Positions 4,337-39,833 of a stretch of 64,000 nt of DNA are shown here, piece by piece. A model generated the notes under the pieces. That model made no database searches. It was not told the origin of the DNA and saw only the letters and a program-made list of their open reading frames with translations. The position numbers were made by a program, and so were the translations under genes. Numbering within the stretch: the stretch's first letter is position 1; the number at the start of each line of letters is the position of its first letter. The DNA is from a virus, in the IMG/VR virus record IMGVR_UViG_3300030119_000590, positions 1 through 64,000 of that record; one strand, 5' to 3'.

Positions 4337-4339
4337 ATC

Positions 4340-4924
4340 ATGTACGAATTTCCAGATTACATTTCAAAAGAAAGTTTCAATCAAGCTGAGTTGGATGTAG
4401 CTATCAAAACTGGTGCATTTGAAAATACAAGAGATTCTTACAACAATCTTGTTGTTAAGATTGATGAAGTAACCCAAGACTCCAAGGTAGGAGACTATTT
4501 AATTGCAATTCCAACCGAAAAAAGAAAACAAATTCCAGAGCAAGTAGAGACATTTTATGACACCACTGTCGGTGAGTTTTCTGATGTGGAACAGAATGAG
4601 GTTGACGAAGTGGTTGCCACGGAATTAAACTCGGTAGTAGATGATGTGGAGGATGATATAACTGAACAAAAACTCTTACAAAGTCAAATAGATGAACTTA
4701 GTGAAAAACTAGATGAAGAAATTGACAAAGCAGTAAGATTCAAAGAAGAAGCATCGCAAACATTTTCTGCATCTAGAGACTTGATAGTCTCTCAAAGAAT
4801 TTCTGCGGGAGAAGGATCTTCGCCTAATGATTTTTCAGACACATTCCCATTTTTACCACTGACGGAATCAGAAAAACTAAATGACAATCTACCAAGAGAG
4901 CAATTTCCATTCATGGGTACATAG
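4340..4924 (+). CDS. Acidic coiled-coil protein of the baseplate region, unknown
   Basis: A 194-residue acidic protein. The start at 4340 lies three bases after the previous stop. Residues about 110-150 have a heptad-like helix (LLQSQIDELSEKLDEEIDKA), probably a coiled coil; the end is short and Pro/Phe-rich. No family recognised. It sits directly before the giant baseplate protein and may bridge wedge proteins or assist their assembly. Confidence 0.8.
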   Translation: MYEFPDYISKESFNQAELDVAIKTGAFENTRDSYNNLVVKIDEVTQDSKVGDYLIAIPTEKRKQIPEQVETFYDTTVGEFSDVEQNEVDEVVATELNSVVDDVEDDITEQKLLQSQIDELSEKLDEEIDKAVRFKEEASQTFSASRDLIVSQRISAGEGSSPNDFSDTFPFLPLTESEKLNDNLPREQFPFMGT

Positions 4925-4942
4925 AAACAATTAGATTAGGTT

Positions 4943-7900
4943 ATGGCAAATTATTTAAAGTATATTGACACCGAATCAAATACAGGAGACTTTACCAGAG
5001 CATATCCGGTTGAGTCAAGTGCCTTAGACTTGGCGTTCGAAAAAACATCTACCAAAACTACATTTGGTAAGTCATTCAAGGATGTAATAGAGTTTACAGT
5101 ATACGATTCCACAGGAAGAAATTTACTTGCCTGGACAATCATCGAGGGTCTTGAAAACTATACGACTAAAAATTTATATTATACAAATTACAATGATGAT
5201 ACAGTTACCGCATCGGTGCGAGTCCTTGATTCAGTATATCCCTCGGCAAATGGAAATATAATACTATCACCAACAGACCAATTAAAAAAGTTAAATTTCA
5301 CCACAGGTGCATATAGAATAGGATTTTCTTTTAGGAACGATATAATAGGATCTACTGAGTCGGAAAGCAAACTTATAGTCTCTGAAATATCTCCATCAAG
5401 AACCGAGATAAAAATTACACCAGAGTGCCTTAGAAACTCAACAAGACCACAAGATGCAGCTATAAATTTCGAGTATGACAATTTTATTAATAAAAGAATT
5501 GTTGTTTCGCACATATACCACGATGTCAGTTCTTTTTACAGAGACGATGTATCTTTTATACTTGATAATACTGGATTAGATTTTTCGGAGGATTTTAAAT
5601 CAACATTTGATGACTTTGAACAAAGTTACGAAAAAACAATAACTACGTATCTAGGAGTAGATATTAAGTCAATAAACCCAACTCATATTAATCAGTTTAT
5701 AAGTAATATATATTCTAATTACGAGAAGGTAACTAAGTTGTATAATAATGTAATACTAACAAATTATACAAGTTCATTTACTTCATCAGATTTTTACGAT
5801 GAATATCTTAAGTGTGCTGACTATATAATTTCAAAGCATACTAAATTGGCAACACTTTCAACTGACTCCGTTGAAGTAGAATTTTATAAGTCTGCATTTA
5901 TTCATTTTTATGATTTAGATGCGTTGTCGGGTATTTACGCAGATAGATTTGATAACTACTTTTCCAATGTTATAAATTTATCAAACAATCAAAGTTATCC
6001 AATACTAAAGCAAACTTTATCTAGTCAAAACGCAAACGATGCGGTAAAACAACAACCACTTGTGTTGAAATTATCAGAACCACTTCCATTTAGTGTAACG
6101 GTAGGCACTAGATTTCATTTGTCAAATGTGTCTAGTTCTGATGATATTATACAAAATATAATCGTAACCGAAGAGGTGGTTTCAACCACATATAAATTGA
6201 GAGGACCAAATAAAGTATCACTTTTAACTTCATCGTCTGGTACGAAACAATATACAAGTGAAGATCTTACACTTGGAAATGAAATTGAATCTGGAATATC
6301 TAACCATTTCAACAAATTGACATCGGGAACAGAATTATCTGTAGATTATTCTGAATTTTCAAATTATGTAAGATTCTCATCTGCTAAGAAGAAACTAGAT
6401 GCGTTTGTGTATAAGTTAACTCAAGTTTCAAAACTTAATAGAAAAAAAATAGAATTGGAAAATGAGATATACAATTTAAAAAAAAGAATTGCTAATGATA
6501 CCATTGGCAATGAAACTGGTGCAGATTCTTACACAATATTGCGTGAGTTTGACATTAAAAAGACAAATGAAAGTCTTTCGGAGATTATAGACTCATTCAC
6601 AGAATATGAAAAGTTTCTATTTTATACTGAAGATAATTTTGCTTGGCCAAGGTCAGAAAACTTGGTAGTTACGACCAACTCAACTCAAAAGTTTCAAACG
6701 GTTTTATATGAAGGTGTTTATTATGAGGACGGTGTATATAATGAACGACCACTTTATACGCATCAATCTAACGACTGGACTTTATATTGGGACGGAGCGG
6801 AGTATGGTTGGGTATTATCCGATGCAGGAACATCTAAAACGAATCATTGGATTTCAACAAGACCTGTAACAACAACAGACTCTTTTATTACAAGCAATGT
6901 TTTTGGAAATCAAACAATAACAAGAACAACAGATGCATCTATTGAAAAGTTGGCAAGTAGTTCTGAGTTTTCATCAGACGCAACACCAGATTATATGCCA
7001 AACTCGGATAATGTACCAACCGAAAGACCTTGGTTATCGTTTAGTATTTCATACGAACAAGTAATTCGAGGTATAAAAGGAACAGCCCGTTCACCAAGAT
7101 ACATTCCTGCTGATTTAAAAGTGTTTCAAAAAGACAAAGGCTATTTTTGGTATTTGGAACGAGCAAACGAAGCTGAGCAATATGATAAAACAAACGATGA
7201 TAGTCTTGGAAATAATATTCCTGAATTTTTAGTAAGAGACGATAGTAATCAAGATTTTGTTGATTTTCTAAATCTAGTTGGCAATCACTTTGATTTAATT
7301 TATACATACATCGCAAACATGGGTGCTTCACTTAAACCAAGAAACAATCCAAACAAAGGTGTTCCAAACGAATTAGTATGGTTTATTATGAACTCTCTCG
7401 GAGTAAGATTCAGTGGCCAGGATGATGCTGGAGATGATATGACTTCCGATTACCCTACTGGCGGTTTATCAATTAAGGATAGAAGAAATATAATATGGAG
7501 AAGGATTCTTAATAACTTACCCCACATTGTCAATACAATCGGAACTGAGCGTTCAATAAATGCACTACTTCGTTGTTATGGTGTACCAGACTATTTGTTT
7601 AAAGTAAAAGAATACGGAGGAGTTAAATACTCAACATCTGGTGCTTCGGATGAATCTATTTTTAGTTTCGATTCATTTGATTATAAACTGAATTTCACAC
7701 AAGATGACCAGTATATCTCTATTCCTTGGCATGGAGATTCCTATGAGGTCAGAACACTTGAATTTGAAACATCTTTAGACGATTCTCTTCGTGAAGAGAA
7801 TCTAAGTACCGAGTATGGTCTGTTAGAGTATAATATATCACCATCGGCCATTATTAAAGACCAGGAAAATGGAATAACTTCATCTGGATGGATTTATCAA

Positions 7901-10900
7901 GGAATATTATCCATACCACCTGCTACATCAGAAGTGGGTGCTCCCGGATTTGAACAAGACTCATCAGCTCCATATCCAGTTGATGTTATTGGTCCGGACG
8001 GTGATATGTACGGACACCTAACATATACTGGTATACCAACAAATAAAGGCAAACTTTACTATAAACCAGATTCTGGTCCTTATGAAGGAGAGTCTTTATA
8101 CGGTGAAATGCGTTCAAATATCTGTCAATTAAATATAGAAACAACGGATATACCCATTGTAAACTCTGATAGAAGTGTGAATTTAGATGACTCGTCATCA
8201 GATTGGGAACTCGGAATTGAAATAGAACCAGGTAGACAAAGTGACGGATACGGAAGATTTTATTTTGAATTTAATGATGGAATCCGACAATATTGTCCTG
8301 AAAAAAAACACCCACCAATATGTGTACTTGGAGCAGGAGACTATAACGTAATGCTTGTTAAGTCATATAAAGAAGAAGGAAAGTTTTCACAATATTTAAA
8401 AATGTATGTTAAAAGAGCATCGGGTGCAGACATTGTGGTAAGTTATTCAATCTTGATACCTGCAACAAAAGAATCTTTTGAAAAATTTAATTCATATAAC
8501 AAAGTCTTTTTTGGAAATTATATGTCATCGGTGTTCAAAGGAACATTGAATAAGTTAAGAATGTACAATATTGAGATTCCTGAAAACAGATTTGAAAATC
8601 ACATTCTTTTTAACCAAGCATATGATTTAGACGATCCAAGTCAAATGAGAGATTCGTTAATATTCAAAGCAAACTTTGATTATCCATATGATTTATCGTC
8701 TGTAGCAAATCCGTCTGCGTCTACCGATGAATATCCAACAGGAACCATACCAAACAATTCGTTCAGAAAAGATGCACCTAAGAATATAGAGTGTTGGAAT
8801 TTCCGTTCACGTGAGTTTCCATACGACTTCGTTGGAGAAGGAAAACGTCAATTCGCAAAACTACCAGGATTCGGAGCACAAGCATTTAGCAATAATAAAA
8901 TAAGAATTGAAACTCAGAAGGTCATTGCTCCACTAAATCCACGTGCAAGGTCAACTGAGAAGAGTGGAGATAGACTTGCGGTTGACACCAACACACTTGG
9001 AGTATTTTTTAGTCCAACTGATTTAATAAACACAGAGATTATAAGATTCTTTGGAAGTTTTGAACTCGGAGATTATATTGGTGATCCTGCGGATTTATAC
9101 AAAAGTGAATACAGAAGATACGATGAATTCAAAAAGGTATTCTACAGAGAAGGTTTTGGAAAAATTGATTGGTCTATGTATTTGAATATAATGAAAACTT
9201 ATGTGGATGCTTCGTTGTTTGAAAATATTGAAAAAGTAGTACCTGCAAGAACAAGACTAATATCAGGATTGATGGTCGAACCTAGTATATTAGAACGAAA
9301 TAAATTAAAGAGTATAGTGGTAAATCCACAAGTTCAGTCAGATTTTAAAAAACTTTCACCAGAAGAATTGGAAAGTATTAACAATCCACATGACCACGAT
9401 GGTATAACGAACAAAGCATCTAATAATCACAAAATAAATCGTTTGCAAAATATAGAGTTGTCAGGTGTTAGGTCATCTGAAAATATTGCCTCGTTTGCAA
9501 ACCAACAAATAGGACCAAACACCAAAAAAGGAGGCGTCACACTTCACACAGGTGAAACTACATATAAACGAAATTCAAGTGCAAATCAACTAGACTCTAA
9601 CCGAACTTTTAATTTTAATTATACAGGTAACTTTATAGATACATCACTTGACCAATATATGTATGGTATCTCTTCTACATACGGAGTTTATTCAGAAGGT
9701 GGAAGAATGTTTAAAGTAGAAAATACTCCAAGAGAGTTACAATTAAGACTTCCTATTAAATATGCTCTTGGTGGTGATATAGATTATGGAAACTTAACGG
9801 ATGTCATTATAAAAGTACAAGGATTCGATTCTAAGTTAGTGTTTGAGTTTTCATCTGCCAACGGAATTTTTAAATCGGGTGGATTTCTAAACAATAAGTT
9901 ATTTTTCTCAAATAGCTCAAAGACATGGTTTATTTATTGGAGTGTTATTAGATCAAAGTGGGTTCTTGTAAATGAAAACCCTACATACATGAAAGAAGAA
10001 GAAGGATTACTTACACCAAGAAAAGGGTTATTGTGGGTGAGTGATATAGCAGATGCTTGCATAGGAAAAGTTTACACATGGCCATGTCGGTTCAGTGGAA
10101 GTAAAACTGGTGGAACAGCATATTATGAAAATGATTACATAACAATTGTTGATAGTGGAATCTTACCACAGGTAGAGGTATTGAATGACAGAATAATGTC
10201 CGTGAATACATTACTTGCTCCATTTAACAGCGGTAGAATCTTTGGTTATTTAGATTGTGAAATATATGGAAGTTTTACTGGTAGATATAAAATGATGGCA
10301 ACAATAAACGGAGTTGATGTGTGGCAACCGAAAACTGGTTATTTTGAAGTTGAAAATCATTATTTTGAAAAAGACGGAGAGAAAAAGAAAATACTTATTG
10401 ATGGTCAGTTTAGTGGAAAACTTTTACGAGGTAGTCTTGGAAGTATATCACAAGATGTTAAAATCCTTGGTCGTGTGAACGGCCGTGACTATTTTGATTG
10501 CGACTCTCCGTGGGTAAGACCCGCATCAGACGATGGTAGTGTAATAAGTGACATAAATGAAATTGTTAACATTGAATCTGTTGAAGTAACAAACAACTTG
10601 ACAGAGTTCCAAGAATCTAAAGCAATAAATTATATTTCAAAGAAATTTGATTCAGTAAATTTAGTTCCTGTTCCAAATAAGTATAAAAACAAATACTCAA
10701 GTATAATTCGTTATGGTGATACTGAATCACCTTATACAGATTATTTGGTTAGAAACGAGGATATATTTCGTCACGGAGGTTCGTCCAAAATATCAGGAAA
10801 TTATACTTTATCTGTTAACCACGAAACCAAAGATACATTTACTTTTCCTGTTTTATTTGATTACCAAGTTGAGTTATCAGCAACTTTAAAAGGAAATGGA

Positions 10901-19429: not shown

Positions 19430-22400
19430 ATGATAAAGCCGTTGAAAGTTTCTGACAAATCGGTTAGGAGGTTTAAAACACACAAGTTGTGGTCGTATGA
19501 TAATATTACATCAGTTGATGATATATTACTTGAACAAGAAAACTTGGACGGACCTTTGTCATTATTCTTAGATGAAAGTACGGTGTTATCACCTGAACAA
19601 ACAAGTTCATCCACCAAATTAAAAGTAACACGTGGAAAACGATATGAACCAACAGATACTTTTTATCCCGTTGGGCATAGCTTACACGATCAAACAAAAG
19701 AACTTATAAATGGTGATGGATCGTATCAACGTGTGGTGTACAATTCAATTAAGCATTTGTTTTACAATGAGTATGGTGTTAGTACATCATTAAGTTCCAC
19801 AGGAACTAATGTAAAAAACCCATTGATGGTATTTGGTTCAGAGACAGGTAACTATATGATGAATACCCGTGCGGAAAATACCATATTTAGCACAAATAAT
19901 AACGTAGACTACGAACGACGTTCGTTGCAAGATGATATCATCGTAGTTCAGTTTGATTCATCTCAAATGGGTGAAAAAATAAAACCTGGAGACTTTAGAA
20001 TACGAGATTATAGTTCACCTTATGGAGTTCTTGAAGTTGTCGATGACGGTGCAACAAATTTAGTGATTAGCACATCGTCTTTTAATGAAATTAAGGAAGT
20101 GAGTGGTTCTTCGTTGACCGATGTAAAATCAATTAACTCTGATAGTCCAATATTTAATTTTAATGATCTTACGTTTGGATATAAAATATCTTCCGCAGGA
20201 AAATACTTTATATCGGGTCAACCGGTTATGTCAGATGCTCCAACGGAAGTAAATTCTGGTCGTGCGGTTTTGTATAAATTAAATGAAGAAACTCAGGAAT
20301 TTCAAATACTTCGTGAATTTTTTAATCCGTTTACTCAAAATGGACTTTCAACAGAAATACAAAATGATAATACCGGATTTTTGATGACAGAACTTGAAGG
20401 TATGTTGATAAACGAAGATTATTCTATAAACGATAATTTTGGTGATGCGGTTGAATTAAAGCACAATTGTTGTGTAGTTGGTTCGTCTCAATCTCATATA
20501 AGAGGTGTATGTAGTGAACTTGGAAAAACTGGTCATATATTTGTTTACGATAGAGATAAAGGTGGTGCAGACCATTGGGGTCTTGTTAATATAATTGAAG
20601 GAGAACCTGGAACTGAATTTGGTGCATCGGTATCTATAAAAGGAAAACATATGGTTGTAGGTGCACCTGGATATAACAACTCGGAGGGTGCTATATATCT
20701 TTTTGAGAAATCAGTTAGAACTGAATCACATCCGTGGAAAAGAATTTCAAACTCTTTTGATGATTATGATTGGGATGAAGAGCAAGGTGTATATGTAGGA
20801 AAACCAACTGGTGAAAAACTTGAAAGAAATAATAAATCAGTTTCTAGGTATAACATTAAGAGTTTAGTTCCCAATGCTGATAAGTTAACTCACTTTTATA
20901 TAGATTCAAGTAAGTTTCTCACGAATTTATGCACAGAGGCAAACTTAAACCAATACACAATTTCTGTGGGAAGTTCCACAAACGACCAAACAAATGGAAT
21001 TAGTGCTTCGGGTTGGAAGATGTCAGGTATTTTATCAGCATCTGGTTCAGACTCATCTGAGTCATCACTTCCGTATCCTGTTGATGTTTATGATTCTTCA
21101 GATAATTTAATTGGCAACATTATATATACTGGAAAACCAAAGGTTATGAGTTTGTACTTTTCATTTGGTGAAGATAACTTAAATTGTATAAGTGGAACGA
21201 TTCAAGGAAACTCATGTAGAATGACAGGTGGGTTGTTACAAGAACAATGTTCAGAACCAGGATTTACAGAATATAGAGTATCTTTGTCGGAGAGTGTCAG
21301 TGATCAACTAAATGGAGTAACTTCTTCTACATGGATGAAACCTGGAATATTGTCGGTGTCAGGTTCTGACACATCAACTTCGTCTGAACCATATGCAGTG
21401 GATGTATACGACTCTTCTAATTCCTTGATAGGACATATTACATATACTGGTAAACCAAAATCAATGAACTTGTATTTTAGAACATCTGATATGGATGCTT
21501 CTTGCGTTTATGGTAAGATTGAAGGAAATATCTGTATACTACCAACAGAGTTAGTTATATCCGGAACAACATCTGGTATCTGTACAGAGGACGGATATAC
21601 GGAATATGAGGTTTCACCCCAAGAGGGAATTACAGACCAAGAAGCAGGTATAATTTCATCTACATGGACTCGTCTTGGTATTTTATCATTACCAAGCACA
21701 AAGGACACTTCTCAACCCACACCAAATCCAGTGGATGTGCTTTATCAAGATGAATTATTAGGACACATTACGTTCACAGGTACTCCTGCAAGTGACAGAA
21801 TATATTTCACAGAGGGTGCAATATGTCTGTCTGGTAAAATAATAAAAGGCGAGTGCATATTGTCAGAACACCAACCATTAATAGGAAAGAAAATATCAGG
21901 TGATTTGATTGATTATTCTGTTTCAACCGAACTTGGTGTGAATGACAACATCAATGGAATTATATCTTCTGAGTGGCTATATTCTGGAATATTATCACTA
22001 CCTTACGCAGATTCTACAAATTCAAGCACACCTTATTTCATAGATGTATATGATATAGATGGTTTGTTTGTAGGACATATAACATATACAGGATTACCAG
22101 TTAGTTCTAATATATACTTTACTGACCAAGAAGGTTTTGTATTTGTGGGTACAATCGTAGGTGGTAAATGTGAATTCAAATATTTAAATGAACCACCTGA
22201 ACAACCTACTCTTGAACAACTTGAGTGTACAGAGGATGGCTTTAACACTTACAATGTTTCATCGGAGCAGATAGTAGACGATAGTGAGTGGGGAGTAAAA
22301 ACATCAACATGGGCATATACAGGTACTTTATCAATATCACACGCAGATACAAAATATGGTACTCAGTCTTATACAGTAGATGTTATTGATCAACGAAATA

Positions 22401-25400
22401 TTATGCTTGGTACACTTACCTATTATGGAAACCCAAGCAGTATGAACATTTACTTTAAACGAGATAACTCATTAGGTTGTGAGTCAGGAGTTATCGTTGA
22501 TAATGTATGTAAACTTACACCATACGATATTATTGATAAGACTGAGTTTAAAGAAACTCCATGTGATTCAATCGATGCTATTGAGATAGAAACATTTGAC
22601 GGAGAATATATAGCAACTGAAGGAACTGTTACTGGATTTCCACCACACCAATACGAGGAAGATGACAATGGAAATACATCACCTGAACATTCTATTGGTA
22701 ATATTACATGGGATTTAGTAGAAGTAATAACCGTTCCTGGATCACGAAGGTTGGGAGAGCAACTAAAGTTAACGGGTGACTTAATTTATTCAACATCACC
22801 AAGTTCACGCATTAAATATTGCAATGTGTTAAAGAAGCTACCGAAAACAACAGAGTGTGGTGTGGGTTGGAAACACACACATAATATTACAAAAAACGGA
22901 ATTTACAACTTTGACACAGATCCAATTGGTTTGGGTGACGGGTTTGAAAGAGTAAGTGCCGATGTAAATGACAATGAAGTAGTAATCAAAACTATATTCT
23001 TAAACTCTGACCCAAAATATACTTCTGGATTTGTTTATAGAGTTGATGCACCGTTGAACGAATCCTTTTCATCTTTTAATAATGAACTTATAGTTTCGGG
23101 TGGAACTTATGTTGAGGGTAGTATGATAACTCTCACACTATCAAATGGAATGCACGATGTTTACCTCGGACGAATTGATAAATCAGGCCAACTTGTAGGA
23201 AGACAATCTAGAATTAATTTGGCAATAAATCCAATACCATACAATTTAACATCTAGAAAAGATTTAGTAAAATTTCCATATGATTATGATTTTAATGTAG
23301 ACGGAAGTTTTGGAATATCACTTGATGCTAATGAAAAGTTTTTACTCATAGGTGATGCTTACGACAGAAAGTTTAATGATCCGAATAACCCAAACGCAGA
23401 GTTTGTTGCTGGTGCAGTTTATGCATTTTCTGTTGACGGTGGTAAGATTTCTTTTCTAGAAAAATTATATGCCGATGAATTAGAGGAATTCACTTATTCA
23501 AGTGAATACGGAAGAAGTGTCTCGATACAAGGAACTGATTTTCTGGTAGGAGCACCAAGTAAAGATGCAAGTGAAATATCGGTTTTAGATGGTGGTGAGA
23601 ATATTGGGGTAAAAGACTTTAGAAGAGGAACACGAAGAATTTCAGACCGAACATATGTTTCTGAGCAATTGATTTATACAAATGCAGAATGCTCTTATGT
23701 CGGTGGAGATATGCCAGATGTGGTGGTAAAAATACCAATAGATACATTGGAAGTAAATGAAAGTCTAATTTCTGAATTTATGATTACGGCCGACTTTATA
23801 AAAACTGATAAAAATAGTTTGTACACTCTACGGATACCAACAGACTATACAAAACATATTGTGTCACCTGATAAATCTGTTACTGACAATGTGTCTAAAA
23901 TAACTTCATCAACTTGGATGACAACTGGTGTTCTGTGGTTACCACCGGCAGTTACAAATGAAACTGCAACACCTACTCCGATTGATGTATACGATTCACA
24001 AAAGAACTTTCTTGGTCACATTACTTATACAGGTCAACTATCGGTAAATAAAATTTATTTTGTTGAAAATGGAACACCATATGTTGGTGAGATAGAAAAT
24101 TCTCGATGTATGTTGACAGATTATACAGAAAATCTTGGGTCGGTAACCCGTGGTGTTTATCGAGATTTGACAAAAATTGAAGATGGCAAAGTTTGGTTTT
24201 ATGTTGATGTTGATCCAGATACATTTACGCAAACAGACCGAACGTGGTCACAAGACGGAGTTGAGTTTGTTTATTATGTTGATAGAAATGCAGAAGAAGG
24301 TTCGGTTTTTTATTATAGAATTGGGGAGTCTAGTATTGATAGAAAGGCATTTGTTAAGACAAATAAATACCCATATAAAGTCAGACATCAGTTTGGAACT
24401 GCTGTATCGTTAAGTTCTGATTATATTTATGTTGGTTCTCCTGTTATGGGAGATTTTCCTGCAAATGAACTAGAAGCATTTGAAGGGTCTGACCTTGGTT
24501 TATTTGAACAATGCTCTAAGATCTATTCTTCGTATGGAGATATTGCATGGGGACGTCTATCAAACATGGATAAAGATGTTTCTGGTAAAATTTTGGCATA
24601 CGATGTTGCTTCTTTGCGTGATGACGAAAGAGTTTATGTTGGGAATGTGTTTTACAAAAATGGAATTGCAGTTATTACTAATTCCTCAGACTATTTCAAA
24701 AATATGTTTTCTGGCTCAAATGATACAGGATTTGAAGTTTCGTATCGTGGAACTCATGCAATATATGAAAATGAAATATTATGTTCAGTTGCACCTTCTG
24801 AGTTCAATGTAAGTACAAATCCAACTTCTGTTTCGTATGATGATATTGATTACGATGTAAATGGTGATACTCAATTTGACATAAAAGACTTGGCATATAT
24901 TTACCGATATATGATTGGTTCTTTGGTTGATATACAAATTGATATCGAGGAAAGCTATACTGTCCAAAAAGAAACACTTGAAACCATTTGTAGAGAGTTT
25001 TCAATTCCGTATCCATCATCAATTGACATAGAAAAAAGATTTAAAATACCAGTAGAAGTTTCGTTTGGAATGCTTGATATACGCAGAGTTAATAATGGTG
25101 TAGTGGGAAATAAACTTAGGTATGACGATGCTATTACTGTGGGAGAGTCATTAGTACTTCCATCAGGATATACACACACGGTACGACCAGTTCAGTCAAT
25201 TGAATCTATTGCAAAATTTACAGGTGTAACAGTAGATGCGATATACCAAGCCAACCCAACCGCATCTGCTTCTCCTTTATATCTAGGACAAACATTGATT
25301 ATACCAGCAGGAGGAGATTTTACACCTGGTATAAAATTCGAGGAAGGTAATAACTCTAATTGGCCAAACGATGACTTGGCATTAACTGAAACAGAAGATT

Positions 25401-25894
25401 TGATTCTTATGGATGTTCTTCTTCGTTCCACCGAAAATTCTGTAGGTGAAAACGAGTACAATAAAATACTTACGAAACTCGAGTCGTTAGAGGAACGTGG
25501 ACTACTTGATATTGATGGTGATGGTATGGTTACTGATGTAGATGCCAAATTATTAGTAAGATATTTCGTAGGAAGAACTGGAACAGATTTGACTGATGGA
25601 TTAATAAACACTTTCACAAATGGTGAAATTGCTCAAAGCAGAAATGTTGCATATCAAATATTGGAGTTTTTAGACGAACGGACTGGTAAAAATCGTGGTG
25701 TTGAAATACTTCAAGATTTCGTGGATTATCGTGAAAATGATGCAAAGGATCAACTTGGAAGTTATTTAGCACCATTTGCAACCACAATCGGTATTTATAG
25801 TGGGTTGGAACTTGTTATGGTTGCTAAATTAAGTAGACCCGTGAAGATAGTTCCTAACTATCCAATTAATTTTTTGGTGAAATATGACACTTAA
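19430..25894 (+). CDS. Giant adhesin-like tail protein: FG-GAP propeller, GILS modules, dockerin-like repeats, LysM
   Basis: A 2154-residue protein, probably a receptor-binding or fibre component. Visible parts in order: N-terminal attachment domain (1-340); FG-GAP-like blades (FGDAV at about 338, FGASVSI and MVVGAPG at about 396-412, later FGISLDA at about 1294, YGRSVSIQG and LVGAPS at about 1360, FGTAVSL at about 1655); six GILS modules (five at about 507-1029, one at about 1473-1563) inserted in the propeller; a dockerin-type calcium loop DVNGDTQFDIKDL (about 1807-1819); a LysM-like domain (YTHTVRPVQSIESIAKF to LGQTLIIPAGG, about 1914-1962); a second dockerin-type loop DIDGDGMVTDVDA (about 2027-2039). 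FG-GAP domains bind ligands and calcium, LysM binds peptidoglycan or chitin-like glycans; the role in this phage is inferred. Confidence 0.85.
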   Translation: MIKPLKVSDKSVRRFKTHKLWSYDNITSVDDILLEQENLDGPLSLFLDESTVLSPEQTSSSTKLKVTRGKRYEPTDTFYPVGHSLHDQTKELINGDGSYQRVVYNSIKHLFYNEYGVSTSLSSTGTNVKNPLMVFGSETGNYMMNTRAENTIFSTNNNVDYERRSLQDDIIVVQFDSSQMGEKIKPGDFRIRDYSSPYGVLEVVDDGATNLVISTSSFNEIKEVSGSSLTDVKSINSDSPIFNFNDLTFGYKISSAGKYFISGQPVMSDAPTEVNSGRAVLYKLNEETQEFQILREFFNPFTQNGLSTEIQNDNTGFLMTELEGMLINEDYSINDNFGDAVELKHNCCVVGSSQSHIRGVCSELGKTGHIFVYDRDKGGADHWGLVNIIEGEPGTEFGASVSIKGKHMVVGAPGYNNSEGAIYLFEKSVRTESHPWKRISNSFDDYDWDEEQGVYVGKPTGEKLERNNKSVSRYNIKSLVPNADKLTHFYIDSSKFLTNLCTEANLNQYTISVGSSTNDQTNGISASGWKMSGILSASGSDSSESSLPYPVDVYDSSDNLIGNIIYTGKPKVMSLYFSFGEDNLNCISGTIQGNSCRMTGGLLQEQCSEPGFTEYRVSLSESVSDQLNGVTSSTWMKPGILSVSGSDTSTSSEPYAVDVYDSSNSLIGHITYTGKPKSMNLYFRTSDMDASCVYGKIEGNICILPTELVISGTTSGICTEDGYTEYEVSPQEGITDQEAGIISSTWTRLGILSLPSTKDTSQPTPNPVDVLYQDELLGHITFTGTPASDRIYFTEGAICLSGKIIKGECILSEHQPLIGKKISGDLIDYSVSTELGVNDNINGIISSEWLYSGILSLPYADSTNSSTPYFIDVYDIDGLFVGHITYTGLPVSSNIYFTDQEGFVFVGTIVGGKCEFKYLNEPPEQPTLEQLECTEDGFNTYNVSSEQIVDDSEWGVKTSTWAYTGTLSISHADTKYGTQSYTVDVIDQRNIMLGTLTYYGNPSSMNIYFKRDNSLGCESGVIVDNVCKLTPYDIIDKTEFKETPCDSIDAIEIETFDGEYIATEGTVTGFPPHQYEEDDNGNTSPEHSIGNITWDLVEVITVPGSRRLGEQLKLTGDLIYSTSPSSRIKYCNVLKKLPKTTECGVGWKHTHNITKNGIYNFDTDPIGLGDGFERVSADVNDNEVVIKTIFLNSDPKYTSGFVYRVDAPLNESFSSFNNELIVSGGTYVEGSMITLTLSNGMHDVYLGRIDKSGQLVGRQSRINLAINPIPYNLTSRKDLVKFPYDYDFNVDGSFGISLDANEKFLLIGDAYDRKFNDPNNPNAEFVAGAVYAFSVDGGKISFLEKLYADELEEFTYSSEYGRSVSIQGTDFLVGAPSKDASEISVLDGGENIGVKDFRRGTRRISDRTYVSEQLIYTNAECSYVGGDMPDVVVKIPIDTLEVNESLISEFMITADFIKTDKNSLYTLRIPTDYTKHIVSPDKSVTDNVSKITSSTWMTTGVLWLPPAVTNETATPTPIDVYDSQKNFLGHITYTGQLSVNKIYFVENGTPYVGEIENSRCMLTDYTENLGSVTRGVYRDLTKIEDGKVWFYVDVDPDTFTQTDRTWSQDGVEFVYYVDRNAEEGSVFYYRIGESSIDRKAFVKTNKYPYKVRHQFGTAVSLSSDYIYVGSPVMGDFPANELEAFEGSDLGLFEQCSKIYSSYGDIAWGRLSNMDKDVSGKILAYDVASLRDDERVYVGNVFYKNGIAVITNSSDYFKNMFSGSNDTGFEVSYRGTHAIYENEILCSVAPSEFNVSTNPTSVSYDDIDYDVNGDTQFDIKDLAYIYRYMIGSLVDIQIDIEESYTVQKETLETICREFSIPYPSSIDIEKRFKIPVEVSFGMLDIRRVNNGVVGNKLRYDDAITVGESLVLPSGYTHTVRPVQSIESIAKFTGVTVDAIYQANPTASASPLYLGQTLIIPAGGDFTPGIKFEEGNNSNWPNDDLALTETEDLILMDVLLRSTENSVGENEYNKILTKLESLEERGLLDIDGDGMVTDVDAKLLVRYFVGRTGTDLTDGLINTFTNGEIAQSRNVAYQILEFLDERTGKNRGVEILQDFVDYRENDAKDQLGSYLAPFATTIGIYSGLELVMVAKLSRPVKIVPNYPINFLVKYDT
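20950..22515 (+). repeat. Five GILS-type modules in tandem
   Basis: Five units of roughly 90 residues (starting near 20950, 21266, 21600, 21910 and 22243) share the order V-S-x5-D-x3-G-(I/V), SS-x-W, G-I-L-S, P-Y-x-V-D-V, G-H-I-T-Y-T-G and a final cysteine. A sixth copy is at about 23848-24118. DNA identity between copies is only partial. Confidence 0.85.
23848..24118 (+). repeat. Sixth GILS-type module, separated from the others
   Basis: Same order as the tandem copies: SS-T-W, GVLWLP, P-I-D-V-Y-D, GHITYTG, K-I-Y-F and a final cysteine. It lies between two FG-GAP-like segments, some 440 residues after the fifth copy. Confidence 0.8.
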
Positions 25895-26987: not shown

Positions 26988-27914
26988 GTGGGCATTTCTG
27001 AGCAAAAGTTACTGACCTTACTTCAGAAGGTCTTGGGTGAAGGTAAAATCGTCTCTAAAGACGAAGCAATGTTTATATGCCCATTTTCACACCACCGAAA
27101 ACCAAAATTGGCTGTGAATCTATCTACGCAGAGGTGGCAGAGTTGGATTGATACAAATGCAAAAGGTCGTAGTATCTTTGCGTTATTCAAGAGGTTACAA
27201 GTTCCAAGCAATTACTTTGCCGAGTTATCAAAGATTGTAAAACTTCCGAAAAGCACTAAGTTGGTAGATGCAGAAGAGAAGTATGTGTCATTACCTTATG
27301 AGTTTAAAAGATTGACCGAAACTCACAAAGACTTTTCTTACACACAGGCAATAAACTATTTGAAGAATCGTGGAATTAAATCGTATGATATTGAACGATA
27401 CGACATAGGATATTGCTCTGATGGAGATTATTCAGGTAGAATTATAGTTCCATCATATGATCAAGATAATAAATTAAATTATTTTATTGCAAGAGATTTC
27501 ACAGGAAATGCTTATTTAAAATACAAAAATCCACCGGTCAGTAAAGATGTGGTGGTGTTTGAGAATCAAATAGATTACTCAGAACCTATTGTATTATGCG
27601 AAGGAGTATTCGACGCAATTGCTATACGGCGGAATGCAATTGCTCTTTTAGGTAAAAACATACCAAGTAAATTAAAAATTAAAATGATTGAAAACAAAGT
27701 TTCTGAAGTTTATGTGGTTCTTGACGAAGATGCCATTAAAAATGCAGTAGCAATTACAGAAACATTGTTGAATGAGGACATCAAAGTGCGATTCGTTAAA
27801 ATGGGAAACGAAGATGCCGCCGACGTTGGATTTCGAGGAATGGTGGAAAAACTTCGGAATACACCCATAATGGGTTTTGACGCATTGATGAAACAAAAGT
27901 TATGCATGAGTTAG
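26988..27914 (+). CDS. 61: DNA primase, TOPRIM type (gp61-like)
   Basis: A 308-residue primase. The N-terminal part carries FICPFSHHRKPK (about residues 28-39), a probable degenerate zinc-binding region. The TOPRIM core shows the acidic motif CEGVFDAIAI (about residue 203 onward) and VVLDEDA (about 243), which bind magnesium. It would make RNA primers for lagging-strand synthesis; T4 gp61 is of similar size (342 residues). Starts with GTG at 26988, two bases behind the RuvC-like gene, and overlaps the start of the nuclease gene by 13 bases. Confidence 0.85.
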   Translation: MGISEQKLLTLLQKVLGEGKIVSKDEAMFICPFSHHRKPKLAVNLSTQRWQSWIDTNAKGRSIFALFKRLQVPSNYFAELSKIVKLPKSTKLVDAEEKYVSLPYEFKRLTETHKDFSYTQAINYLKNRGIKSYDIERYDIGYCSDGDYSGRIIVPSYDQDNKLNYFIARDFTGNAYLKYKNPPVSKDVVVFENQIDYSEPIVLCEGVFDAIAIRRNAIALLGKNIPSKLKIKMIENKVSEVYVVLDEDAIKNAVAITETLLNEDIKVRFVKMGNEDAADVGFRGMVEKLRNTPIMGFDALMKQKLCMS

Positions 27915-28606
27915 ACACGAAGATAAAAAAGGTTGAAAAAATTTATCATGTATCAGATATTCACCTAAGAAACGTAAAACGTCACAAGGAATACCGAAGT
28001 GTATTTGAAAACTTTTACAAACAGCTAAAAGAAGATGCACTTGAAAACGCAATAATTTTTATTGGTGGGGATGTTGCTCATGCCAAAACAGAAATGAGTC
28101 CTGAACTGGTCGCGGAGATTGCAGATTTCTTTAATAAATGTGCAGAGATACACCCAACACTATTGATAGCAGGAAATCATGATTGTAATTTAAATAATCC
28201 AGATAGATTAGATGTATTGACTCCAATAGTTGATATGCTTGATAATGATAATCTGTTTTATTTAAGGGAAACAGGTGTGTATAAAATTGGTGATGTTGCA
28301 ATTAGTGTGTTTGGTATATTTGAAGACCCAAGTGAATATATTCGTGGAAAAGATATAACCGATAAGTCAATATCAACAAAGATTGCAGTATATCATGGCG
28401 CAATCAAACGAAGCAGAACAGACGTGGGTTACGTTATCGTTGGTGGTGATGTGCCTATGTATATGTTTGACGGATACGATATGGTAATGCTTGGGGATAT
28501 TCACAAGCATCAAATTTTACAAGAATATCATACTGAGGCATTGTTTGTACCTGAATCAAAAACAGATGAATATGTTCTTGATGGGTGGGAGGTCTGCGAT
28601 GACTAA
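27902..28606 (+). CDS. 47: N-terminal half of SbcD/Mre11-type nuclease (gp47-like), truncated
   Basis: A 234-residue metallophosphoesterase. Motifs: HVSDIH (Asp19, His21), IGGDVAHAK (about 52-60), IAGNHDCN (about 88-95), YHGAIKR and GDIHKH (about 198-203). These are the five phosphoesterase motifs of gp47/SbcD. The protein stops shortly after GDIHKH, where relatives continue with a Y-x-GS-x-Q-x-x-x-GE segment and a capping domain. Those parts are missing here but are found at the start of the gene at 29524. A glycosyltransferase gene lies between. The last eight bases overlap that gene. The fragment keeps the whole metal site and may still assemble with the fused protein. Confidence 0.88.
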   Translation: MHELDTKIKKVEKIYHVSDIHLRNVKRHKEYRSVFENFYKQLKEDALENAIIFIGGDVAHAKTEMSPELVAEIADFFNKCAEIHPTLLIAGNHDCNLNNPDRLDVLTPIVDMLDNDNLFYLRETGVYKIGDVAISVFGIFEDPSEYIRGKDITDKSISTKIAVYHGAIKRSRTDVGYVIVGGDVPMYMFDGYDMVMLGDIHKHQILQEYHTEALFVPESKTDEYVLDGWEVCDD

Positions 28607-29534
28607 TATCTTAATAAAGTGCAGAAATATTCACATAGGTGATGTGATTTTTTCAAGTAGTGTCGCAAAGAAACTGAAAGAAAAGAATCCAAATTGCATT
28701 GTTCACTATGACATCAATTATTTGCAACCTATGGAACTTCTTAATAATAACCCATATATTGATGGAGTTTATTACAAAGAATCGGCAAATATAGATTATG
28801 ATGTGGTGTATCAATTGATGAACGATGATGTATCTACATTAAGTCCATATGAATCTGCGGTTGCTCAATTTCAACGAATGTGTGGAATTGAAGATTACGA
28901 TGATACCTTCGAAGTTTTTACAAATCCTCAACTTGATTATTCTATAAAAAGAAGTATGGATGAACTGGTTAGCATAGGTGATTGGGATGATGACTTGGTA
29001 AAAATAGGATACCAAGTTGATTGGGATAGAAAAAGTTTTTTGTTCACGGAAGAAGAATATGAAAGAGCAGAGGATGGTGAAGACGGAACAGGATACGGAA
29101 GTGGAAAACGAAATGTATTTGATATAATCAATTGTATGGAAGTTTCTTCAAAGGTTATGTTGTTCGCACTTGGTCTTGAAGATAAGATTTCAAAGAACTA
29201 TCCGTGTTTAAATTCAACCAGCAAATTTTCGTTTACCGCAAGTTTAATGAAGAATTGTGATTATGTTATTGGGGGTGAAGGGTGTCTTACCAATGTATCA
29301 TCTGCACTGGGAACTAAAACGATAATTACGACTGATTATGTTTATCAAATGTTTGGTCCAAAAGGAATTCGTTGGCAACAAGAGGGTGGTGATTTAAACA
29401 ACTTGGAAACTCGCAGACCATTCCTAGGTCCCAATGCGTACTTTCCAAAAGGAGGCCACATAGAACTAAACCCGTTTTTAACAGACCTCCAAGTTGGAGA
29501 AGAAATTTTAAGAATAGCACTTGATGGAAATTAA
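28599..29534 (+). CDS. Glycosyltransferase family 9-like protein inserted between gp47 and gp46
   Basis: A 311-residue protein. The N-terminus (IHIGDVIFSSSVAKKLKEKN, about 11-30) resembles the GD-x4-P-x-(L/I) start of ADP-heptose:LPS heptosyltransferases, and NCDYVIGGEGCLTNVSSALG (about 217-236) resembles their donor-site motif (vIg.dsg..HlAaalgt), though the usual His is replaced. I chose ATG 28599 over upstream starts because GGGAGG lies at 28587-28592 and homology begins right after. It would add a sugar to a nucleotide-sugar acceptor, perhaps host LPS or a phage glycan. Its place inside a split recombination gene is odd and suggests insertion. Confidence 0.7.
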   Translation: MTNILIKCRNIHIGDVIFSSSVAKKLKEKNPNCIVHYDINYLQPMELLNNNPYIDGVYYKESANIDYDVVYQLMNDDVSTLSPYESAVAQFQRMCGIEDYDDTFEVFTNPQLDYSIKRSMDELVSIGDWDDDLVKIGYQVDWDRKSFLFTEEEYERAEDGEDGTGYGSGKRNVFDIINCMEVSSKVMLFALGLEDKISKNYPCLNSTSKFSFTASLMKNCDYVIGGEGCLTNVSSALGTKTIITTDYVYQMFGPKGIRWQQEGGDLNNLETRRPFLGPNAYFPKGGHIELNPFLTDLQVGEEILRIALDGN

Positions 29535-32130
29535 AGAAAAATATGTAAAAATAAGAAGACTCAATCCTAGTAAACCTGTGGTAGTTTATTCGGGTAGTAT
29601 GATTCAACAAAATCACGGAGAACTTCCACGTGGTCATGGATATGTATTGTGGGATGTAAAAGAACGTAAACCAAACCATGTTGAAGTTAATAATGATTAT
29701 GGTTATTACACAATAACAGTTCGTGACGGAACGTGTGTAAGTGATTTAACTTTGTTGCCAAAGAAGGCAAGGTTACGAGTAAAGGTTTTTAATACAACTG
29801 CCGCCGAGACCAAAGAGATACTTGCAGATATACGAAAGCATACAAGTATCACAGACTTGAATGTTACACGATGTGATGCAATATCAGAGGCAAAGAAGTT
29901 TGATAGAGACAGTAAGTTTAATTTTGGTGATGTAACTCAAACATCCGTACAGAATGATTTAATAGAAGATTATCTTACTCGTAATTTTGTTGTAGATGAA
30001 GAGCAAATAAAAACTGCTCTTGATATCAATAAAGAGGTCAACGGAAAACTTGCAATCAAAGAAACTCTTCGTAATTGTATTTGGAAACCCAAGACATTTG
30101 AGTTCGGTAATATGTTCAGTTATGGAGACGGAAACATCATTGACTTCTCTAAAATGAAAAGTGTCATGGGATTGTTTGCCTCAAATGCATCCGGTAAAAG
30201 TTCTATTATGAGTGCTTTGAGTTTTTGTTTGTTTGATAAATGTGACAGAGCATTTAAGGCATCTCATGTACTTAATACAACTTGCTCTGATTTCAAATGC
30301 AAACTGAACTTTGAAATTGAGGGAGTTGATTATTTTATTGAACGGGTTGCAACGACTAAAAAGAACGGAGATGTTACGGTATCAGTTGAGTTTTGGAAAG
30401 TAGACGAAAATGGAAATACTCTTTCTTTGAATGGAGAAATGCGTTCAGGAACCAATGCAATTATCCGTGATCATGTAGGTTCGTATGATGACTTTGTTCT
30501 TACTACACTTAGTTTACAGAACAACAATTCCATTTTTATAGATAAAAGTCAAAGTGAACGAAAAGACCTTCTTGCACAATTCATGGGAATTGATATTTTT
30601 GATAGATTGCACTCAACTGCATCTGAAGACATCAAAGAAGTTAACGCATTGCTCAAACGATTCAACCGAGAGGATTTTAGTGAGATTCTCGCAGACAACC
30701 AAAAGAATTTGGACAATAAAGAATCAGAGTATAATGCTCAACAGAAATTAACTGAAGGTTTTGTTACAAAACAACGAACTCTGAATGAGAAACTTGTTAA
30801 GATAAATTCCGAGTATAAAACGTGTTCAACCGAAGAACAAGATTTGGATTTGGATGAACTTGAGTTTGAGCAGAAAAATCTACAGGAACGGTTGAATACT
30901 GCAAAATCTACAAGAGACAACACTTCCAAGGAAAAGCAACAATTAACATCTAAACGAAAAGACCGTAAGAACTTGGTTACCACACATGAAAAGAATGAAG
31001 TAGAGTCTGAACGAGAACGAGTAGAGGAATTGCAGAAGAAACTCGTAGTGGTAGACAAAGACCTTGCTGTTTTAAGAACATCTGTAAACGCAAAACTAGA
31101 TAAGTTAAAGCATTTCAAAGACCATGAATATGATCCTGAGTGTGAGTATTGTGTGAAGAATGCAAAAAATATTATAGAATCAAAAGACGAAACACGTAAA
31201 GCACTAGACAAAGATAAAGGAGAAGCAAACAAGTTGGTGGAACTTAGAAACGAATATACCGAGAAACTAGGTGATGCGGATAAAATAGAAACTCAATATA
31301 GAGAACTTAGGGATGCAAGGAATGACGTTAGACAATTGTCTTCTGAGATAAATGAAAAGGATAGTAAGATACTTGCATTGTCTTCTATGATAGAGTCGTT
31401 GGAAAAGGATATAAAAATAAATGCCGATAAGATTGTTATGTACCACGAATGTCGTGATACCATATTGTTCAATAAAGAACTTAAAAAGTCTGCGTCTTTG
31501 ATCAAAGACGAATTAAAAGTAGTTGATTCTGATGTTGAACGAGAAACTGCTAAGTCTCAAGTTCTGTTTGGTGAAGTAAAGGTGTTTGAAAAAGAACACG
31601 ATGATATTCTGAAATCCATTGAAGAGGCAAAGGGATTTGAACGAAAGAAACGTGGTTATGAATTATACTTGGATGCGGTTAAACGAGATGGTATTCCGTA
31701 TGAACTGATTTCCCAAACAATTCCGAGTATTGAAAGTGAAGTGAATAATATTCTATCACAAATCGTTGATTTTACTATGCAACTTGAAATGGATGGAAAG
31801 CACATTTACTCTAAGATTGTATACGAAGATAGACATTGGCCACTTGAAATGTGTAGTGGAATGGAGCGATTCATTAGCAGTATTGCTATGCGAGTTGCAC
31901 TCATAAACGTATCAAGTCTACCAAGGTCTAATTTCTTGGCGATTGATGAAGGTTGGGGTTCGTTGGATGGAGACAATATTAATAGTGTATTTAATCTATT
32001 TACGTATCTAAAAGGTCAGTTTGAGTTTATTCTTGTAATTAGTCACCTTGACATTATGCGTGATATGGTTGACGAGATTATAGAAATTCAATCTAAAGAT
32101 GGTTGTAGTCGGATAAAATATGGGGTATAA
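29524..32130 (+). CDS. 46: Fusion of gp47 C-terminal half with gp46/SbcC-type ATPase
   Basis: An 868-residue protein, far longer than T4 gp46 (560 residues). Residues about 12-45 (KPVVVYSGSMIQQNHGE, then GHGYVLWD) are the conserved segment that in gp47/SbcD follows GDIHKH, and about 46-185 look like its capping domain. From about 190 the protein is gp46/SbcC: Walker A ASNASGKSS (about 219-228), Q-loop region LQNNNSIF, a long coiled coil with a zinc hook CEYC (about 540-543), ABC signature CSGMER (about 776) and Walker B NFLAIDEGWG (about 800-809). With the gp47 fragment it should make the gp46/47 recombination nuclease. The ATG at 29524 overlaps the glycosyltransferase end by 11 bases. Confidence 0.9.
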   Translation: MEIKEKYVKIRRLNPSKPVVVYSGSMIQQNHGELPRGHGYVLWDVKERKPNHVEVNNDYGYYTITVRDGTCVSDLTLLPKKARLRVKVFNTTAAETKEILADIRKHTSITDLNVTRCDAISEAKKFDRDSKFNFGDVTQTSVQNDLIEDYLTRNFVVDEEQIKTALDINKEVNGKLAIKETLRNCIWKPKTFEFGNMFSYGDGNIIDFSKMKSVMGLFASNASGKSSIMSALSFCLFDKCDRAFKASHVLNTTCSDFKCKLNFEIEGVDYFIERVATTKKNGDVTVSVEFWKVDENGNTLSLNGEMRSGTNAIIRDHVGSYDDFVLTTLSLQNNNSIFIDKSQSERKDLLAQFMGIDIFDRLHSTASEDIKEVNALLKRFNREDFSEILADNQKNLDNKESEYNAQQKLTEGFVTKQRTLNEKLVKINSEYKTCSTEEQDLDLDELEFEQKNLQERLNTAKSTRDNTSKEKQQLTSKRKDRKNLVTTHEKNEVESERERVEELQKKLVVVDKDLAVLRTSVNAKLDKLKHFKDHEYDPECEYCVKNAKNIIESKDETRKALDKDKGEANKLVELRNEYTEKLGDADKIETQYRELRDARNDVRQLSSEINEKDSKILALSSMIESLEKDIKINADKIVMYHECRDTILFNKELKKSASLIKDELKVVDSDVERETAKSQVLFGEVKVFEKEHDDILKSIEEAKGFERKKRGYELYLDAVKRDGIPYELISQTIPSIESEVNNILSQIVDFTMQLEMDGKHIYSKIVYEDRHWPLEMCSGMERFISSIAMRVALINVSSLPRSNFLAIDEGWGSLDGDNINSVFNLFTYLKGQFEFILVISHLDIMRDMVDEIIEIQSKDGCSRIKYGV

Positions 32131-38115: not shown

Positions 38116-38464
38116 ACTCATGGATGCAGTTATTGGGACGGTAAGTGACAAAGTAACAATTTCCGTGCAAATAAACAAAACCAAACACGCAGGTGAACGT
38201 CAGTCAAGACACGATCATATGCAAATATCCGAAAAAGATATTATGAATGTTGCGGATAAAGCAATTCCTGATATATCAAAGGCATTGTTGTTTGACAGAA
38301 TAGATGTTGGTGATTATATTCATGTAAAAGATAAAAAAAGTGCGTTGAATTTAATTGGAATATTACAAGAAAAATCACCGTTTAATCTGATGTTTGTAAT
38401 AATGACTGTTATGATAAAACCTAACTTTATAGCAAAGAAGGGAACTTACACTATAATTGTGTAA
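38108..38464 (+). CDS. Small protein, unknown
   Basis: A 118-residue protein overlapping the previous gene by eight bases. It contains KHAGERQSRHDHMQISEKDI (about 26-45), reminiscent of the HA-x-ER-x-x-R pattern of small RelE/BrnT/DUF4258-like proteins, then IDVGDYIHVKDKKSALNLIG and a final beta hairpin. The resemblance is too weak to assign toxin or nuclease activity. Confidence 0.7.
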   Translation: MIKLMDAVIGTVSDKVTISVQINKTKHAGERQSRHDHMQISEKDIMNVADKAIPDISKALLFDRIDVGDYIHVKDKKSALNLIGILQEKSPFNLMFVIMTVMIKPNFIAKKGTYTIIV

Positions 38465-38468
38465 TGTA

Positions 38469-38477
38469 ATATTTATA
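38469..38477 (+). promoter_or_regulatory. Candidate late promoter 3 bases before the start codon
   Basis: ATATTTATA ends three bases before the ATG at 38481 and directly follows the stop of the preceding gene at 38464. No ribosome site is present, so expression would be leaderless. Confidence 0.55.
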
Positions 38478-38480
38478 ATA

Positions 38481-39833
38481 ATGAATTTTTCTAGAAGAAA
38501 GTTTTTGCGAACCGCAGGAGCAACACTTAGTTTACCATTTTTTCCTTCCTTACTCAGTGGTAAGTCTGATTCTATACTTCCACATAAAAAATTGGTTATG
38601 ATGTATATACCTAACGGAATACTTCGTAGTAACTTTTTTCCTAACGAACTTGAAAAAGAACTTCCAAAGTTTATTGGTGGGTTCAATGCCGATAAAACTA
38701 AAGATAAAGTAAGAATAGCAAATGAACCTGGAGTTTACCCATTGGAATTAACTCCAACAATGAAACCTTTACAGAAGCATATAAAAGATATATCGTTGGT
38801 TACTGGATTAGATAGAACATATAAAAATGGTCAAGATGTTCATGCTCAAGGTGCGTCATGTTATTTAACAAGTGTATCTCCTGAACAGGCTGCCGACAAA
38901 GGAATGAAATATCCAAACGGAAGAAGTCTAGACCAAGTGATAGGAGACAAAGTGGGACACACTACGGCATACAATACTCTTGAAATAAGTTGTAATGGAT
39001 TCACTTCTGGTAAAGAAGATATATTTTTTGATAATATTTCATGGTATGGTCCGGGTAAAATAGCTCCATCAATCAGAAGTCCTCGTAAGTTGTATGATAG
39101 ATTGTTTATGTCAGACTCTTACAGAACCCATATAAATGATGTAACGGATTTAATTTTGGCAGATGCAAATTCAATCAAAGGAAAATTAGGTTCTGCTGAT
39201 AAAAATTCAATGGAAGAGTTTCTTGATATGATAAGAAATATTGAGGTTCGTATAAGCAAACTGGATGAAATAATAAAAAATGCTGACATTAAACAGCCTA
39301 CAAATGAAATTTTACCAAGAGGTCAGTACATAAAACTTCAAGCAGATATGATGTTGTTGGCAATGCAAATGGGAATAACGAATGTCAGCACATTTATGAT
39401 TGGTCCCGAAAGATGGGATGCCACTCTTTTTTATGAAGGTGTGTTTGATAATCCTGTTCAACACCACAACATGACTCATAATCAACAAAGAGAAGAAGAA
39501 GGATTAAAGAAAATTGATTTATTTCACATTGAACAATTTTCATATGTAATTTCAAAAATGAAAGAAATCAAAGAAGCAAACGGAACAAGTTTATTTGATA
39601 ATTCTTTGATTACTTATGGTGCAGGTCTTGGTGATGGAGCAACACATCAATATTTTGATTTGCCGATGATTGTTGCGGGTCTGGGTCAGAATCAAATTAA
39701 ACAAGGAAGGTATATTCAGTGCAAGAGTGGGACATTGAATTCAAATTTATGGTTAACTTTAGCAAATTTAATGGGACTCGAAATCAGCTCTTTTTCAGAT
39801 AGTAACGGAGTCATTTCTGACTTATGGACATAA
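38481..39833 (+). CDS. DUF1552 family protein with Tat signal peptide
   Basis: A 450-residue protein. Chosen start is ATG 38481, which puts a twin-arginine signal at the very N-terminus: MNFSRRKFLRTAG followed by a hydrophobic stretch to LLSGK (about residue 28). The body matches the DUF1552 type: KLVMMYIPNGI, a LxLVTGLD segment, H-A-Q-G-A-S-C-Y-L-T, and a late GAGLGDGATHQYFDLPMIVAG. Length fits the family (about 430-460). Members are exported proteins of unknown function common in Planctomycetes and Verrucomicrobia; some resemblance to the sulfatase/phosphatase-like DUF1501 group is my impression. It would be folded in the host cytoplasm and exported to the periplasm. Confidence 0.85.
   Translation: MNFSRRKFLRTAGATLSLPFFPSLLSGKSDSILPHKKLVMMYIPNGILRSNFFPNELEKELPKFIGGFNADKTKDKVRIANEPGVYPLELTPTMKPLQKHIKDISLVTGLDRTYKNGQDVHAQGASCYLTSVSPEQAADKGMKYPNGRSLDQVIGDKVGHTTAYNTLEISCNGFTSGKEDIFFDNISWYGPGKIAPSIRSPRKLYDRLFMSDSYRTHINDVTDLILADANSIKGKLGSADKNSMEEFLDMIRNIEVRISKLDEIIKNADIKQPTNEILPRGQYIKLQADMMLLAMQMGITNVSTFMIGPERWDATLFYEGVFDNPVQHHNMTHNQQREEEGLKKIDLFHIEQFSYVISKMKEIKEANGTSLFDNSLITYGAGLGDGATHQYFDLPMIVAGLGQNQIKQGRYIQCKSGTLNSNLWLTLANLMGLEISSFSDSNGVISDLWT

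Follow-up and report, generated by a model that had tools for sequence, protein, structure and literature searches.

The locus described here raises the question of how a gp47/SbcD-type nuclease gene came to be broken by another gene, with its C-terminal part joined to gp46, and of whether the pieces still make a working enzyme. The locus lies in a stretch of 64,000 nucleotides of viral DNA (positions 1 to 64,000 of IMG/VR record IMGVR_UViG_3300030119_000590), referred to here as the window. Three overlapping genes, designated N, G and C, form a cassette 3' of RuvC-like and primase genes, all on the + strand. The N-half (27902-28606, 234 aa) matches Metallophos PF00149 (E 1e-8) and the SbcD-like phrog_100; the middle gene G (28599-29534, 311 aa) lies in a third frame; and the C-half (29524-32130, about 868 aa), starting at the ATG at 29524 (a TTG at 29521 is also possible), matches the SbcC-like phrog_77 (E 1e-46). 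The open reading frames are as the original prediction described them, with gp47 interrupted immediately behind GDIHKH, the last of its metal-ligand motifs, the remainder of gp47 joined to gp46 in the C-half, and overlaps of 8 bases (28599-28606) and 11 bases (29524-29534) between the middle gene and the two halves. The same three genes occur in the same order and frames in 37 other contigs with 29 distinct N proteins, and both junctions overlap or abut, so that the layout is due neither to chance nor to the assembly error that the original prediction had named among the grounds for its rejection. The N-G-C arrangement accompanies each of the 35 nearest N-halves (66-97% identity) and is present in two more contigs; all but two of the relatives used in this study are IMG/VR viral contigs. 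In one contig with this arrangement (L077) there is a frame break within gp46 at 9844-9846, probably a sequencing error. A foreign base composition of the inserted gene was considered and rejected, GC content being flat along the locus.

The division of the protein between the two halves follows its known parts. The core of the N-half (27902..28528, +) holds a complete metallophosphoesterase active-site set (D19, H21, D57, N92, H93, H165 and D199-I-H201), up to ...GDIHKHQILQEY; the GDIHKH motif ends at residue 203 of 234, leaving 31 residues after it. These positions are invariant in split and fused relatives except for H21, which is nearly so. The predicted model of the N-half matched SbcD/Mre11 structures in Foldseek (best 7dog, E 1.3e-6), with the small stand-alone phosphoesterase nuclease MPE of P. 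putida (6nvo) as a weaker match. Ligand set and fold thus both identify the N-half as SbcD/Mre11-type, and this polypeptide carries all of the catalytic metal ligands. The C-half opens with a short leader (29524..29565, +; MEIKEKYVKIRRLN) followed by KPVVVYSGSMIQQNHGE...GHGYVLWD, the segment that normally follows GDIHKH in gp47. The gp47 C-part (29572..30090, +), co-linear with fused relatives, holds the rest of the phosphoesterase sheet, the capping region and the gp46-binding part. The gp46/SbcC-Rad50 ATPase (30091..32130, +) has a P-loop (ASNASGKS, read from the sequence), a Zn-hook (CEYC), a signature motif (CSGME) and Walker B (LAIDEG). Taken together, the two reading frames correspond to one intact reading frame of the relatives, as expected for a gene in pieces.

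The original prediction compared the locus with the two separate gp46 and gp47 proteins of T4 and concluded that the C-terminal fragment of gp47 joined gp46 after the split. That comparison was the wrong one and led to the reverse order of events. The search for intact gp47 in related phages, which had been suggested as a check, found 102 fetched relatives with an unbroken gp47, in every case in one reading frame with gp46, among them the full fusion of Microcystis phage Mel-JY01 (WWT39521.1, 1066 aa). These relatives indicate that the fusion came first and that the break fell inside a fused gene; we infer that the fused gene is ancestral and the split derived. Mre11/Rad50 fusions are already known from aquatic viruses, where they are abundant, and Mimivirus R555 has the gp47-gp46 order seen here (PMC3175470). 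Such fusions are unbroken, whereas the gp47 of the window has been cut again.

The point of the break is shared with other phages. At least nine other contigs, from no fewer than six lineages, share this split point in gp47 and have endonuclease-type genes in the gap: L044, L101, L144, L146 (a 484-kb phage genome), L154/L155, L215/L219/L228 and L229. A further contig (L108) contains a tailed N-half running to the contig end. In PHROGs, the intervening genes matched homing/HNH endonuclease families in L154 (phrog_9084, E 1.6e-24), L101 (phrog_1271, E 1.2e-7) and L144 (phrog_3339, E 1e-5); that of L146 matched phrog_1271 (E 3.5e-15) and, over the cut-off, the TnsA-like PF08722, and that of L044 has a NUMOD3 match below the cut-off. 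The intervening genes of L215, L219, L228 and L229 appear by sequence resemblance to be of the endonuclease type, that of L219 having no match in Pfam. In L215, L219 and L228 a tailed N-half is accompanied by a separate C-half reading frame of roughly 90 aa, with gp46 separate and further downstream. The split of gp47 is thus also seen in a lineage that does not have the gp47-gp46 fusion. The split L044 is 91%/83% identical to the fused L021; directly upstream of its split gp47, L044 has a second NUMOD3-containing reading frame (3610-4449, E 6.7e-6). An endonuclease-type gene between the halves was found in the other same-point lineages only, and not in the clade of the window. On this evidence the split in gp47 looks like the scar of a homing endonuclease.

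A second shared feature is the C-terminal tail of the N-half (28529..28603, +; 25 aa, HTEALFVPESKTDEYVLDGWEVCDD), a feature that all N-halves of split gp47 genes have. The tails are of one type, [VI][DE]ESELxxYLxxGWE, found in no fused gene, and the window tail is predicted to form a short helix (residues 218-226) after a flexible joint. The motif is also found inside GIY-YIG-type endonuclease proteins (L208, where it is repeated, L210 and L227). In shuffle tests, the resemblance of the window tail to the L208 repeat and to the majority of the other split tails reached p<=0.0015; it was weaker for the tails of L228 (p 0.0075) and L144 (p 0.05). At its start the tail of L044 reads LQEF, against LNSEG in its fused sister L021, a difference that would fit the import of donor sequence during homing. 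A scan of 26 loci for the motif returned gp47 halves, endonuclease-type proteins, and matches that were due to chance or are unexamined, with no clearly split host gene other than gp47; the matches in L213, L218 and L224 were attributed to chance, lying in an out-of-frame stretch. We also considered a leader common to the C-halves of split lineages. Lysine/isoleucine-rich leaders open other C-halves too, but their similarity between lineages was not significant in the shuffle test and the candidate was rejected. The N-half tail is a terminal addition of mobile-element type. Neither the tail nor the recurrent endonuclease site had figured in the original prediction. Since the N-half of the window has an endonuclease-type tail, the GT9-type gene of this clade probably replaced an endonuclease gene, judging from the tail alone.

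The label GT9-like, given to the middle gene in the original prediction, is valid at the level of the fold. An AlphaFold2 model (pLDDT 80) had solved GT9 structures as its best matches (3tov, E 1.8e-8; also WaaF 1psw and WaaC 2gt1), and the gene is assigned to the GT9 fold on the basis of this predicted model. There was no match to a Pfam glycosyltransferase or GT9 profile in the middle gene, and its match to the NCBIfam heptosyltransferase III model was far below the curated cut-off. The gene sits in the slot that is filled by endonuclease-type genes in other split gp47 loci. Contigs with the GT9 gene in the split form a single clade (support 100/99), in which all 35 of the 35 nearest N-halves (>=66% identity) are accompanied by the GT9 gene; an endonuclease-bearing close relative of the clade was not found.

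We consider it likely that a fused gp47-gp46 gene was split by insertion of a homing endonuclease gene, that the GT9 gene came into the slot later, and that the halves assemble in trans. According to this model, a free-standing homing endonuclease gene would have entered an ancestral fused Mre11-Rad50-type (gp47-gp46, SbcD-SbcC) gene in the hairpin loop right after the last metal-ligand motif of gp47 (GDIH), giving the N-half a tail and the C-half a new start. In the clade of the window, the endonuclease gene would then have disappeared or given way to the GT9-type glycosyltransferase gene, leaving a fixed cassette of three overlapping genes. The N polypeptide, with the metal ligands, and the C polypeptide, supplying the gp46 ATPase along with the last phosphoesterase strands, the capping region and the part that binds the ATPase, would assemble non-covalently into a working nuclease. 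Alternatively, the GT9 gene could have been inserted directly into an intact fused gene by illegitimate recombination, with no endonuclease ever present at this site in the lineage. The window clade has no endonuclease remnant except the tail, the window contig has no GIY-YIG or HNH match, and other phages have free-standing relatives of the GT9 gene within clusters of sugar genes (L191 and L207, the latter with pfkB-type kinase and nucleotidyltransferase genes beside it). However, both the insertion point and the tail coincide with those of the endonuclease-split loci, and such a double coincidence makes direct insertion an improbable origin.

Pooled pN/pS values for the window clade were 0.064 for the N core, 0.065 for the tail, 0.169 for G, 0.078 for the gp47 C-part and 0.122 for gp46. 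The N core, the tail and the C-half are thus under strong purifying selection (0.06-0.12), no part of the cassette is decaying by this measure, and the halves have been retained by selection, as expected for a gene in pieces. These values bear on whether the halves might instead stay apart, with C acting as an ATPase of the gp46 type and N as a phosphoesterase in its own right. The presence of all metal ligands in N, and the existence of small stand-alone phosphoesterase nucleases such as that of P. putida, would fit such an arrangement. Against it, the gp47 C-part is kept at its low pN/pS although it has no active site by itself, and in Mre11-family folds the phosphoesterase core is completed by the strands that follow GDIH; we regard separate functions as somewhat less probable still than direct insertion. 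Assembly of the halves in trans, a possibility already raised in the original prediction, is the reading that we retain, and by analogy with Aeh1 NrdA-a/mobE/NrdA-b the two polypeptides probably reassemble. The endonuclease-type tail would be a candidate assembly element, comparable to the mobE-derived tails of Aeh1 NrdA. The C-terminal tail of Aeh1 NrdA-a (L234, 43207-44628; FKVKKSEVDKFKL) weakly resembles the tails of the GT clade (FIPESKVDEYKL), with shuffle-test p values of about 0.1 for the window and 0.005-0.016 for two other clade members.

The distribution of the splits was also examined on the tree, where they are scattered among fused genes (five changes) and where the AU test rejects their grouping in one clade (p=0.0004); the tree counts changes, and gain and loss of the split are not separable by such parsimony counts alone. 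The counts would by themselves be compatible with a split that is ancestral to the whole family, the fused genes being repeated re-fusions. This history is very unlikely in our estimation, as fused genes dominate, the loop in each is specific to its lineage, normal in length (18-25 residues from GDIH to GS) and free of tail remnants, and the split L044 falls among fused genes, with 91% identity.

No group I/II intron or intein core was found at the junctions: Rfam gave no match, either in the window or in seven split-phage loci, which led us to reject an intron, and no intein model matched N or C. An intein or split intein was also rejected on inspection of the leaders, in which HN is frequent in the GT clade but is not followed by C, S or T at the junction. 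Endonuclease-split phage genes are sometimes spliced, as in the ICP1 case (PMC10448857), and a fused relative (L007) bears an intein elsewhere in gp47, but RNA or protein splicing that rejoins the halves is the least credible of the alternatives, given these blank searches, the protein-level purifying selection on the very tail and GT9 gene that would have to be spliced out, and an overlapping arrangement in which any intron core would have to lie within the reading frames. The L007 intein lies right after the GNHD active-site motif of the fused gene (4372-8535; PF14890, E 1.5e-7, slightly below the cut-off) and represents a second kind of selfish element in a gp47-gp46 gene.

Phage genes known to have been broken by homing endonucleases and yet to work are, to our knowledge, very few. 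The tails of Aeh1 NrdA were reportedly treated by Crona in 2011, and the Aeh1 work reportedly raised the possibility that element-derived tails are a general way to neutralise breaks. In passages of PMC2988022, PMC3653736 and PMC3267527, which describe or cite Friedrich 2007 and Crona 2011, the split ribonucleotide reductase of Aeromonas phage Aeh1 (nrdA-a/mobE/nrdA-b) is reported to be functional as two polypeptides. Like gp47, it is a phage DNA-metabolism gene that is split, is not spliced and has extra terminal sequence on its halves. In Aeh1 a free-standing endonuclease gene lies between the halves, whereas a GT9-type enzyme is encoded there in the window, and the gp47 split differs further in recurring at one site in several lineages with one type of tail. 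T4 topoisomerase 39/60 with mobA, and gene 43 of Aeromonas phage 25 with seg43, likewise have an endonuclease gene separating the two parts of a divided replication gene (PMC2988022); these are other host genes and other endonucleases, and the passages on them in that paper describe no case in which an unrelated gene has taken the place of the endonuclease. Fractured genes with split inteins (cited in passages of PMC3653736 and PMC10448857) differ from gp47, which has no intein sequence at either junction. These genes, broken around an endonuclease gene, were reportedly described by Dassa in 2009.

The several lineages with a gp47 split at the same residue and the same type of tail amount to natural replicates, in which the idea of neutralisation by tails is directly testable. 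The clade of the window adds a later stage, in which the selfish gene is gone, another gene occupies the slot and the split is fixed. Recombination nucleases of the gp47-gp46 type act on double-strand breaks, and the host gene may thus be part of the repair pathway on which homing relies. More tentatively, the tail could be a portable clamp for assembly, one that takes the harm out of a split in gp47, and the site a reusable cargo slot in separate phage lineages, domesticated in the window clade when a glycosyltransferase gene was exchanged for the selfish gene.

Two other genes of the window were noted. A protein of 2154 aa (19430-25894) has matches to FG-GAP, LysM and dockerin (below cut-off). 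A protein with a Tat-signal-like sequence (RRKFLR; 38457-39833) belongs to the DUF1552/HXXSHH family (Pfam, E 5e-63) and is unusual in a phage late region; the family is known mainly from Planctomycetes and Verrucomicrobia, and the protein is a possible hint as to the host.
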